Source: Maribacter sp.
Lineage (GTDB): Bacteria; Bacteroidota; Bacteroidia; Flavobacteriales; Flavobacteriaceae
Length of the DNA: 64,000 nucleotides
NCBI GenBank assembly: GCA_011050675.1
Contig: DRFI01000023.1
Location: 394,079 to 458,078 of the forward strand
Direction: 5' to 3'
Positions within the stretch are counted from its first letter, which is position 1. The number at the start of each line of letters is the position of its first letter. The position numbers were made by a program, and so were the translations under genes. Of the stretch, positions 61,411 through 64,000 are shown piece after piece. The notes beneath the pieces are model-generated. The model searched no databases. It was not told the origin of the DNA and worked only from the letters and a program-made list of their open reading frames with translations.

Positions 61411-61554
61411 ATATTTCACCTTACAAAATGAAAGATTTTTCGCTCACAAGCCCTATAAACACTCATTATATAAATATGTCCTTGGTTTTTATAAGGATAT
61501 TCTAGGTCTACTTTTTATTACCTATGTTTAATTTCGTTGTATACATTATTTTTT

Positions 61555-62286
61555 TTGAACTATACATACACCATAATAGACTCTGATGCTGTCTCAAATT
61601 TGCAGTTGCATGCATTTTTAGACGAATATGGCGACTTTGAATGTATAAATACTACCACCAACCCTACAGATGGCTTAAACGATATTCTAAAATACTCTCC
61701 TGATATTGTTTTTATTAATCTAAATAACGACTATTCATCTGTTTTTTTAATGGTGACCGAGATTCACCAATATATGAGTCAATTACCCATACTAATTGGT
61801 ATTGCTTCAACCAAAAATTACGCATACGACGCCATAAAAAATGGTTTTTTTGATTATTGGCTACAACCCTTTAATGAATTTGATATTCGTAAATCTTTGT
61901 TGAAGCTTCAAAAAAGAATGCCAAAAGAAAAGGCTCCTGCAACTTTATGTCTTAAATCTTACAATGATTTTCAATACTTAAATACCAATGATATTCTTTA
62001 TTTAAAAGCAGATAACAACACCACTGAATTTTTCATGAAAGATGGTACAATTATTAATGCTTTTAAAACGTTAAAAACTTTTGAGAAAACATTGCCAGAT
62101 AACTTTATGCGTATACACCAAAGTTATATTGTAAATACTAGCTATGTCTCTCGCATAAACTTTGGTAAATCTATCTGCGCCTTAAAAGCGGTGAATGAGA
62201 ATATTCCCTTCTCAAAATCGTACCGCGAGAATATGAATAATCTAAAAACTATTCTCTCAAAAAACACGCTTTCCGCTTTAAATTAA
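61555..62286 (+). CDS. LytTR regulator with a degenerate receiver domain
   Basis: Two domains: residues 1-115 are receiver-like (YTIIDSDAVS; PDIVFINLNN; DYWLQPFNEFDI) and residues ~128-240 are a LytTR DNA-binding domain (LCLKSYNDFQYLNTNDILYLKADN; FMRIHQSYIVNTSYVSRI). The receiver lacks the phosphoacceptor Asp (Asn55 in FINLNN) and the conserved Lys (Gln104 in DYWLQPF), so it should not be phosphorylated. The start is a TTG (61555); a longer frame from TTG 61537 is possible. Two 9-bp direct repeats spaced as known LytTR sites lie just downstream of the gene, ahead of the peptide gene. Confidence 0.85.
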   Translation: MNYTYTIIDSDAVSNLQLHAFLDEYGDFECINTTTNPTDGLNDILKYSPDIVFINLNNDYSSVFLMVTEIHQYMSQLPILIGIASTKNYAYDAIKNGFFDYWLQPFNEFDIRKSLLKLQKRMPKEKAPATLCLKSYNDFQYLNTNDILYLKADNNTTEFFMKDGTIINAFKTLKTFEKTLPDNFMRIHQSYIVNTSYVSRINFGKSICALKAVNENIPFSKSYRENMNNLKTILSKNTLSALN

Positions 62287-62306
62287 AGAATTCTCTCACA
62301 ATTGGT

Positions 62307-62336
62307 TCATATACTAGCAGAATTAGGTCATATACT
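62307..62336 (+). promoter_or_regulatory. Putative LytTR binding site (direct repeats)
   Basis: TCATATACT occurs at 62307-62315 and again at 62328-62336, separated by 12 bases (21-bp period, two helical turns); similarity continues upstream (AATT.G). AgrA/LytTR-type regulators recognise paired 9-bp direct repeats 12-13 bp apart. The site is about 50-70 bp upstream of the likely promoter of the peptide gene. Confidence 0.6.
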
Positions 62337-62377
62337 TAAGACTTAAAATACTGCGACTGTTACTTGAGGAACAATAG

Positions 62378-62384
62378 TACTTTG
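62378..62384 (+). promoter_or_regulatory. Weak -7 element for the peptide gene
   Basis: TACTTTG has one base too few between TA and TTTG. A weak -7 preceded by paired regulator sites fits an activator-dependent promoter. Confidence 0.35.
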
Positions 62385-62426
62385 GCTATAGAATAAACCA
62401 AAGAACCCCTAAAAAACAGGAACAGT

Positions 62427-62609
62427 ATGAAAAAAGTAACAAGTATCTTAGCAGTAGCAGTAATGACATTAGGAATAGCAACAGCAGCTATTCAAAATAT
62501 AGACAGTGAATTTGATTTCTTGAACGATATTTCTAAGGCACTTGCTTGTGATGATTGCTCTACGTCTCCCGATGATAGAGGAGGAAGACCTATAGGTAAA
62601 ATCGCATAA
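62427..62609 (+). CDS. Small secreted peptide with a CxxC core
   Basis: Sixty residues: a signal peptide (MKKVTSILAVAVMTLGIATA), an acidic spacer (FDFLNDISKALA) and a short C-terminal part with Cys41-Asp-Asp-Cys44 and Asp/Arg/Gly-rich residues (PDDRGGRPIG). This size and layout resemble the NVEALA-type small peptides of Bacteroidetes, but the named motif is not present, so I leave the family open. It could be a secreted signal, a bacteriocin-like or a structural peptide. It follows the LytTR gene and putative LytTR sites, and is closed by a strong hairpin terminator. Confidence 0.7.
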   Translation: MKKVTSILAVAVMTLGIATAAIQNIDSEFDFLNDISKALACDDCSTSPDDRGGRPIGKIA

Positions 62610-62630
62610 GATTATAAAGAACATTTTACA

Positions 62631-62668
62631 AAAAAGCTTTTAACATTAATGTTAAAAGCTTTTTTTTT
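62631..62668 (+). terminator. Rho-independent terminator after the peptide gene
   Basis: A long perfect stem (AAGCTTTTAACATT with its complement) followed by eight T. Confidence 0.85.
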
Positions 62669-62701
62669 ATACCTTGGTTTTCTATCTCCAAATAATTTTT
62701 T

Positions 62702-64000
62702 TTGAACAAATATTATTTTTCAATATTAGTACTAATTATATTTTGCGCCAGTTGCGCAAAAACAAAACCTTCCTCAAAAACAACCACAATAACTAAATTA
62801 GAAAATGATAGTATTTCTATCTGGTCCGCAAAAAGTCAAAAACTTACCACAACAAAGGAAGAAAAGTTAAAACTACAATTAAAAGCATATGATATTGCTG
62901 AAAACTCAAGTAACGACTCCTTAAAAGCCAGTTATTTTTCTACCCTTTCGTTTAATCAAAATTTTATAACTGATAGTTCTTTATTTCGTAAAATAAACAA
63001 AAGAGCCATTACCATAAATGAAAAAATTCAAGATTCTTCCGCATTAGGTATGGCCTATTGGGATATGGGCTATTTTCTTCAAGGTAAAGTCGTTAAGGAT
63101 AGTGCTTTCTATTATTACTCAGAAGCTTTAAATATATTCGAAAACCTTAAGGATCATAATCTCACAGGAGGATTGTATTTACAAATGGCTGGCATTCAAA
63201 TGAAAATTAAAGATTATAGTGGCAGTGAAGCAAATACTATAAAAGCTATTGAAAATTTTAAAATAGAAAATAATAATAAAAAACTATTCAACTCCTATAA
63301 TCTACTTGGTATAGTTTTAGGTGATTTAGAGGAATATGATAAATCATTAACATATTATAACGAAGCGCTCTATTATTTAAGAAAAACAGAAGACAAACTA
63401 TTTGGGGAAGAACAACTAATAAATAATATTGGAGTTATTTATAGAAACACCAAAAAATATGATAAAGCAATTGAAAATTTTGAAAGTGTTATAAATGCCA
63501 ATAAAATCTTCATCAAAAATCCGAATTTATACTCAAAAGCCTTAAGCAACCTAGCTACTACCAAGCTCTACAACGAAGATACACTTGGTATACATAACTT
63601 ATTAATCGAAGCTATTGATATAAAGCACCAAGAGAAAGAATTAGGAAGCTTAGCATCAAGCTACTATGGTTTAGCGGAATACAACCTTTATGCAAAAGAC
63701 ACTTTAAATGCTCTCGCTAATGCCAAAAAGGCCATAAAATTTTCGATTGAAAGTAATAATAATGAACGATTACTTAAAACTTGGTCTTTTCTTGCAGGCA
63801 TAGATAACGCGAATGCTACTGAATATTTTCAAAAATTCACCACACTTAATGACAGCCTTCAAAAAGAAGAACGAAAGCAACAGAATAAATTTGCACGTAT
63901 ACGCTTTGAAACAGATGAATTTATAGCAGAAAACATAGAATTAGAAAGTGAAAAAGAAGTACTTTCTAAACAAAAGCAAATGTGGATCGGTATTGCTACG
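62702..64000 (+). CDS. TPR-containing signalling protein, partial at the 3' end
   Basis: The frame is open to the end of the window (433 codons). A hydrophobic leader with Cys residues (ISILVLIIFCASC-like, weak lipobox) precedes six or more tetratricopeptide-like repeats (LTYYNEALYYLRKTEDKLFGEE; YDKAIENFESVINANK; AYYGLAEYNLYAKDTLNAL type), then a charged coiled coil (ESEKEVLSKQKQ) and the start of a hydrophobic segment WIGIAT. This is the layout of Bacteroidota TPR-plus-membrane sensor proteins whose missing C-terminus is a histidine kinase, LytTR or LuxR domain. Its TTG start lies in the same T8-GAAC context as the LytTR gene. Confidence 0.75.
   Translation, partial: MNKYYFSILVLIIFCASCAKTKPSSKTTTITKLENDSISIWSAKSQKLTTTKEEKLKLQLKAYDIAENSSNDSLKASYFSTLSFNQNFITDSSLFRKINKRAITINEKIQDSSALGMAYWDMGYFLQGKVVKDSAFYYYSEALNIFENLKDHNLTGGLYLQMAGIQMKIKDYSGSEANTIKAIENFKIENNNKKLFNSYNLLGIVLGDLEEYDKSLTYYNEALYYLRKTEDKLFGEEQLINNIGVIYRNTKKYDKAIENFESVINANKIFIKNPNLYSKALSNLATTKLYNEDTLGIHNLLIEAIDIKHQEKELGSLASSYYGLAEYNLYAKDTLNALANAKKAIKFSIESNNNERLLKTWSFLAGIDNANATEYFQKFTTLNDSLQKEERKQQNKFARIRFETDEFIAENIELESEKEVLSKQKQMWIGIAT

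Follow-up and report, generated by a model that had tools for sequence, protein, structure and literature searches.

Three genes that lie in one direction at the end of a stretch of Maribacter sp. DNA (assembly GCA_011050675.1, contig DRFI01000023.1, positions 394,079 to 458,078; 64,000 nucleotides, hereafter the window) raise the question of whether a transcription factor, a small secreted peptide and a tetratricopeptide repeat (TPR) protein together form a signalling system, and of what kind. On the plus strand a LytTR regulator gene is followed by the peptide gene and by a TPR gene that crosses the window edge. The original prediction, made from the letters of the window, had taken the three genes for a plausible circuit. 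Our analysis supports this and extends it, as the gene order recurs across Flavobacteriaceae. The locus is probably best explained as a member of an uncharacterised family of peptide-pheromone two-component systems, in which the TPR ectodomain would be the receptor; we found this family only in Flavobacteriaceae.

The TPR gene starts with a TTG codon at 62702 and continues past position 64,000, where the original prediction had suggested looking for its C-terminal domain. The contig beyond the window (genome G000, contig C23) holds the rest of the gene, encoding HisKA_3 and HATPase_c domains, followed directly by a response regulator gene. The description as a membrane-linked TPR protein was right about the TPRs and too modest about the rest, since the product is a complete histidine kinase and has a response regulator as its neighbour. 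The complete kinase of 692 aa (L003:2781-4859) has a signal-like N-terminus, TPRs (TPR_12), a membrane segment, HisKA_3 (PF07730, 25.1 bits; cut-off 24) and HATPase_c (PF02518, 40.4 bits), with the signal and the membrane segment read by eye. The phospho-acceptor histidine is found in 107 of 108 aligned kinases, the remaining row having a gap, and the protein thus carries both the H-box histidine and the HATPase domain of a HisKA_3 (NarL-type) kinase. A structure model of the ectodomain is a TPR solenoid (mean pLDDT 83.4). Among the Foldseek matches of this model are LGN/Pins, NprR and Rap, TPR proteins that bind peptides, a likeness that lends weak support because TPR folds are generic. The response regulator (222 aa, L003:4899-5567) appears NarL-like in layout. 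Its receiver domain scored 26.7 bits, under the cut-off of 30.2, no Pfam helix-turn-helix match was found, and the NCBIfam matches to MctR, MadR and NarL were all under cut-off. Some loci carry duplicated genes: two tandem TPR kinase genes follow a single peptide gene in L093 and apparently three in L016 (6392-12171, the third cut by the locus end), two LytTR genes lie in or beside the cassette in L110, and L132 has two response regulator genes.

To what extent do these genes stay together? The LytTR protein had matches in 85 of the 299 family genomes sampled (E <= 1e-25) and in 32 of 36 genomes of the window's genus (E <= 1e-60), and a LytTR query from genus g127, which we take to be Flavobacterium, matched 126 of 199 genomes of that genus (E <= 1e-40). 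When a LytTR profile was run against 395 genomes of the phylum, strong scores were confined to the family and one genome of another family in the same order (156 bits; the next score among the matches listed was 121 bits), and in the latter (L169) neither kinase nor peptide lies downstream of LytTR. Among 80 regions around family LytTR matches, a kinase was present in 78 (all except L111 and L122) and a regulator match in 79, L099 ending before the regulator position. The original prediction had made its case depend on the peptide being conserved beside these genes in relatives, and a signal-bearing peptide between the LytTR and TPR genes was accepted in 77 of these regions; L111, L122 and L116 were excluded, the last having just a 27-residue signal-like frame. 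Kinase and peptide were also found in 19 of 20 further regions (not in L169), 18 of which have a regulator match (not L159), in all of 80 more regions drawn from the better LytTR matches (28 from the window's genus and 52 from g127; scored for kinase and peptide), and in 56 of 57 short loci, L198 having just 334 bases past LytTR. The loss of the peptide in relatives that would have refuted the original prediction is thus not observed. Some species were sampled more than once among the fetched regions.

Because the gene order returns in so many genomes, the locus is not a chance arrangement. Unrelated neighbours within a conserved housekeeping stretch would offer a trivial explanation, and the Maribacter-type flanks, a thioesterase and the glyA-like gene, are indeed conserved as well. 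However, in other genomic contexts the cassette remains intact although its neighbours differ: the flanks vary between the thioesterase/glyA type, several others and the g127 type, while the gene order is constant. We therefore regard this explanation as extremely improbable.

The LytTR gene starts with TTG at 61555 and ends at 62286 (243 aa; an in-frame TTG at 61537 is an alternative start). Its DNA-binding domain is clear (PF04397, 66.4 bits; cut-off 22.6), and its receiver domain scored below cut-off (PF00072, 21.5 against 30.2 bits). In our own alignment to the receiver motif, the phospho-acceptor aspartate is replaced by Asn55 and the conserved lysine by Gln104. At position 55, the 57 Maribacter-type proteins have N in 49, H in 4, D in 2, S in 1 and R in 1; all 19 g127 proteins have E; and the 31 others include 18 with N, 7 with D and 4 with E. 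The lysine is retained in 4 of 57, 17 of 19 and 23 of 31, respectively. Judging by these residue counts, the protein is a pseudo-receiver regulator in most members of the family and not in every one. The degenerate receiver that the original prediction had proposed is therefore supported for the protein in the window.

A ready-made LytTR binding site had been proposed ahead of the peptide gene, and conserved repeats support it as a putative site. LytTR sites are direct repeats with a spacing of about 21 bp. In an alignment of 47 promoters, direct repeats just after the LytTR stop codon and a downstream TA-TTT element are conserved, and 21 bp was the top repeat lag in all four promoter groups (52, 27, 48 and 20 promoters; z 3.5-4.5; 4 of 151 promoters had been dropped as near-duplicates). 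In the window, the putative operator, a triple direct repeat with the 21-bp spacing of LytTR sites, lies at 62293-62336, the one occurrence of the three-repeat pattern without mismatch in the 4.7-Mb genome. The TA-TTT-g element at 62378-62384 is a probable flavobacterial −7 box, and an inverted repeat followed by a T run at 62630-62668, noticed by eye, is a probable terminator of a short peptide transcript. Two further operator matches in the genome each had two mismatches; as these three matches in all are fewer than the 22 obtained with a reversed-pattern control, we did not infer a regulon from operator sites. Read most simply, the promoter sequences suggest a LytTR protein whose dedicated target is the peptide gene. 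In L011 the LytTR 3′ end and the first part of the operator seem to be duplicated as a short direct repeat between the LytTR stop codon and the peptide gene.

The peptide gene (ATG at 62427, ending at 62609) encodes a 60-aa precursor, CDDCSTSPDDRGGRPIGKIA, with a conserved signal-like leader, from which secretion was judged, and a variable tail with a Cys-Asp-Asp-Cys (CDDC) core. A similarity search with this peptide found relatives in 13 loci, all from Maribacter, a genus of Flavobacteriaceae, and precursors from other loci were identified by their equivalent position. After removal of duplicates, 179 unique precursors were left of 244 fetched (L016, a Maribacter locus, was counted with the other genera). 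Common to them is the signal-like N-terminus, followed by variable tails. The CDDC core that the original prediction had put at the centre is present in the window and does not define the family: CxxC was found in 39 of 179 precursors (31 of 31 in the group of the window's genus, 8 of 75 in the others and 0 of 73 in g127) and was rejected as the defining core, being absent from 140. On a quick LytTR and kinase tree of 57 loci, the CxxC label changes 7 times and is clustered relative to shuffles (mean 17), at least three changes being forced by well-supported branches, and its distribution indicates that the CxxC core is lineage-specific. A core motif of the TDG/TGG/TDD/TGD type occurs in 68 of 179 precursors; a loose core motif, picked post hoc, was present in 56 of 108 peptides, compared to 11.9 expected by shuffling. 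As 72 of 179 precursors carry neither core type, we do not claim a universal core.

The signal ends of the precursors bring in a different explanation. A lipobox is present in 69 of 75 precursors from other genera, in 1 of 73 from g127 and in 0 of 31 from the window's genus. The peptide or small lipoprotein could therefore be a periplasmic accessory subunit of a cell-autonomous envelope sensor, which occupies the TPR kinase or releases it in response to faults in secretion, lipoprotein sorting or proteolysis, with no message between cells. The lack of an exporter gene in the cassette would fit such a sensor as well, but the fast change of the tails would not, and neither would their repeats. 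A repeated unit with a period of 12-50 residues was found in the tails of 53 of 179 precursors (40 of 73 in g127, 2 of 31 in the window's genus and 11 of 75 in the others); in 36 of these at least two full units adjoin, and in 17 the core recurs across a spacer. With a like rule in an earlier set, repeats were detected in 46 of 152 peptides compared to 2 of 154 other open reading frames (ORFs; 80-210 aa, from 56 of the loci), and in 0 of 152 once-shuffled peptides. Between adjacent units we counted 495 synonymous and 99 nonsynonymous differences, which correspond to a pN/pS of 0.059; within the window's genus alone pN/pS was 0.150 (two arrays). In L165, L166 and largely in L100, amino-acid changes are confined to the spacer, as seen by eye. 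These substitution counts are evidence of strong purifying selection between array copies, and such selection maintains the unit as expected of a peptide that is released in several copies. Arrays of one conserved unit suit released peptides better than a stoichiometric subunit.

If the peptide is read by the TPR ectodomain, the two should diverge together. We compared distances by a Mantel-type partial correlation, with LytTR and kinase distances controlled and 1000 permutations. Peptide cores correlated with TPR distance at r 0.26 in the window's genus (29 loci) and 0.28 in g127 (69 loci; 0 of 1000 permutations each), and whole tails at 0.29 and 0.41, respectively. With the kinase domain, the values were 0.15 (26 of 1000) and 0.02 (298 of 1000) for cores and −0.12 and −0.10 for whole tails. 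In the window's genus, correlation with LytTR was −0.14 for cores and 0.20 (44 of 1000) for whole tails. Independent pairs gave a residual Spearman coefficient of 0.57 both in 14 pairs (p 0.034) and in 32 pairs (p 0.0007), and a first test without kinase control had given r 0.35 (n=28) and 0.32 (n=44). In the larger samples, divergence of the peptide tails thus follows the TPR ectodomain more closely than the kinase domain. Moreover, omega was 0.13-0.26 for the TPR part compared to 0.02-0.05 for the kinase domain in seven Maribacter pairs out of 12 pairs compared. L005 and L006 are a closely related pair that differs mainly in the peptide tail and TPR part: identity is 97-100% as far as the end of LytTR, falls to 68-88% between the start of the peptide tail and the TPR end, and is 98-99% just after and 88-100% beyond. 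This pattern resembles an allele swap and speaks against an accessory subunit of an envelope sensor, for which co-divergence of ectodomain and peptide would be equally expected. Taking lipoboxes, arrays and swap-like pattern together, we consider the envelope sensor a rather unlikely explanation.

Several observations weigh against a pheromone read by the TPR ectodomain. In g127 the peptide also correlates with LytTR (r 0.14, 6 of 1000, for cores; 0.33, 0 of 1000, for whole tails), so that plain linkage contributes. Mantel tests are open to inflation by shared ancestry, and smaller kinase-controlled tests, whose results cover two of four sets, did not reach significance (r 0.10 with p 0.22 for n=13; r 0.13 with p 0.10 for n=18); in the n=13 set the kinase correlated better (0.42, p 0.003). 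Three g127 pairs showed no excess of TPR omega and two other pairs were saturated, and TPR A helices are not more variable than B helices (0.92 vs 0.95 bits). L154 and L163 are alike in peptide and TPR part (0.85-0.93) and not in LytTR and kinase; since their upstream flank is equally alike, it may be LytTR and kinase that were exchanged. The cores of L006 and L007 are near-identical, yet their TPR parts resemble each other less (0.76) than those of L005/L007 (0.85). In addition, lipidated precursors may remain attached to the cell, some relatives have a receiver that is not degenerate, and the ORF lists of the cassette showed no gene for a dedicated exporter or protease, the genomes not having been searched for one.

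A further alternative is that the peptide itself is an effector, bacteriocin-like or metal-binding, the production of which is regulated by LytTR and the two-component system. Autoinduced peptide bacteriocins of Firmicutes use LytTR regulators, which provides a precedent, and the acidic, DGD- and CxxC-rich cores might bind metal. However, we saw no gene for immunity, transport or modification in the cassette, and the tails co-diverge with a sensor ectodomain. Pfam gave no match above cut-off for five peptide relatives (four without any match and one with a match under cut-off), and NCBIfam matches of seven peptides were all under cut-off. No modifying enzyme of the type that acts on ribosomally synthesised and post-translationally modified peptides was noticed in the gene lists, in which no profile search for one was made. 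An effector role is therefore improbable in our view.

Under the pheromone reading, which we prefer, the pseudo-receiver LytTR protein would bind the three 21-bp repeats and drive a short transcript for the secreted precursor. The signal sequence would export the precursor, as a lipoprotein in most other genera, and proteases might then free a core of perhaps 12-20 residues, or several copies from array precursors. The core would bind the TPR solenoid that the neighbouring histidine kinase exposes in the periplasm, most tentatively also on other cells, and the kinase would signal to the adjacent response regulator and hence to a regulon, perhaps with feedback on LytTR. Joint diversification of peptide tail and TPR ectodomain would generate species- or strain-specific signal types.

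How does such a system compare to known ones? Gram-positive bacteria provide the best-known peptide pheromones. In the agr, ComCDE and Blp systems of Firmicutes, peptide, membrane kinase and LytTR protein are encoded in one locus, peptide and sensor domain diversify rapidly, a kinase of the AgrC/ComD type phosphorylates the LytTR regulator, and a dedicated processor or exporter belongs to the locus. The present locus shares the first two traits. In contrast, its kinase is of the HisKA_3 type with a TPR ectodomain, the LytTR phospho-site is mostly not aspartate, and the LytTR protein, as a pseudo-receiver, is not the evident partner of the kinase. Moreover, no recurrent extra gene was present between LytTR and the regulator in the ORF lists of 13 and 56 loci, to which no profile search was applied. 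Yeast alpha-factor-type precursors likewise place multiple copies of a short peptide after their signal sequence; we draw this as an analogy and claim no common descent.

The RRNPPA systems of Bacillota (Rap-Phr, NprR-NprX, PlcR-PapR, AimR) resemble the locus in that a secreted propeptide gene lies next to a TPR receptor gene and in the similar TPR fold. In the relevant passages, RRNPP_detector defines such a system by a TPR receptor of 250-500 aa beside a secreted propeptide, and the survey covered Firmicutes with their phages and plasmids (PMC10075063); multiple mature-peptide copies are described as common in several RRNPPA subfamilies (passages of PMC9765709 and PMC11343458). A small secreted propeptide gene is adjacent here as well. 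Unlike the cytoplasmic RRNPPA receptors, however, the candidate receptor is a histidine kinase of 692 aa whose TPR part is predicted to be periplasmic, and no re-import need be assumed; the phylum is Bacteroidota, and a LytTR protein and a response regulator are added. The present system may work like RRNPPA systems, and its TPRs may likewise bind the peptide. Within Bacteroidota, FimS of Porphyromonas gingivalis combines a histidine kinase and a TPR sensor domain in the periplasm, and its signal is described as unknown (passages of PMC11053733). The kinase studied here shares this combination but scored 40 bits with the NCBIfam FimS model, far under the cut-off of 600, and the FimS passages mention no peptide gene or LytTR partner (PMC11053733). 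N-acyl-cyclolysines are a different, non-peptide signal family in Bacteroidota (cited in a passage of PMC13419125). In F. johnsoniae, the mutations listed include some in a LytTR gene and in the histidine kinase gene next to it (passages of PMC10197871). We did not recognise the locus in passages of PMC10352776, PMC10197871 and PMC12487129, no comparison with the F. johnsoniae genes having been made, and among the open-access PMC matches listed, a scope outside which preprints fall, no paper was recognised as describing this system.

It is an evenly balanced question whether, more broadly, Flavobacteriaceae hold an unrecognised and widespread peptide-pheromone language, in which secreted, often multi-copy precursors are read by kinases with TPR ectodomains, signal types diversify or swap with the ectodomain and LytTR is dedicated to the pheromone promoter, so that by extension other TPR kinases of Bacteroidota may be peptide receptors. 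If true, Flavobacteriaceae would gain a coded peptide signal, a natural class of ligands would be suggested for the Bacteroidota TPR kinases of unknown signal, and the family would provide a recurrent case of ligand-receptor co-divergence that is directly testable with synthetic peptides.

As for the output, L111 and L122, the two family regions lacking kinase and peptide, have LytTR and regulator genes directly before an operon resembling type II secretion and type IV pilus systems, and in L133 the whole cassette adjoins such a cluster. The L111 cluster, the one scanned with Pfam, contains T2SSF, T2SSE, a secretin and a pilin with a ComP match under cut-off. A GspE-like ATPase was found in 33 of 85 genomes with the LytTR protein compared to 27 of 214 without (Fisher p 1.7e-6; relatedness not controlled). 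None was present in the window's genome at E <= 1e-60. Because of these two limits, a secretion or pilus-like output is only a lead.

Finally, among neighbouring genes, a 212-aa protein (L003:5713-6351) without Pfam or NCBIfam match is encoded after the response regulator in most Maribacter-type loci. In the window's genome it is followed by an opposite-strand gene that we take to be glyA-like. In g127 loci (L139, L151-L168), the cassette often lies beside what are presumably a glyS-like gene (18 of 56 loci) and a ComF-like gene (14 loci), upstream of LytTR, which is perhaps a coincidence.

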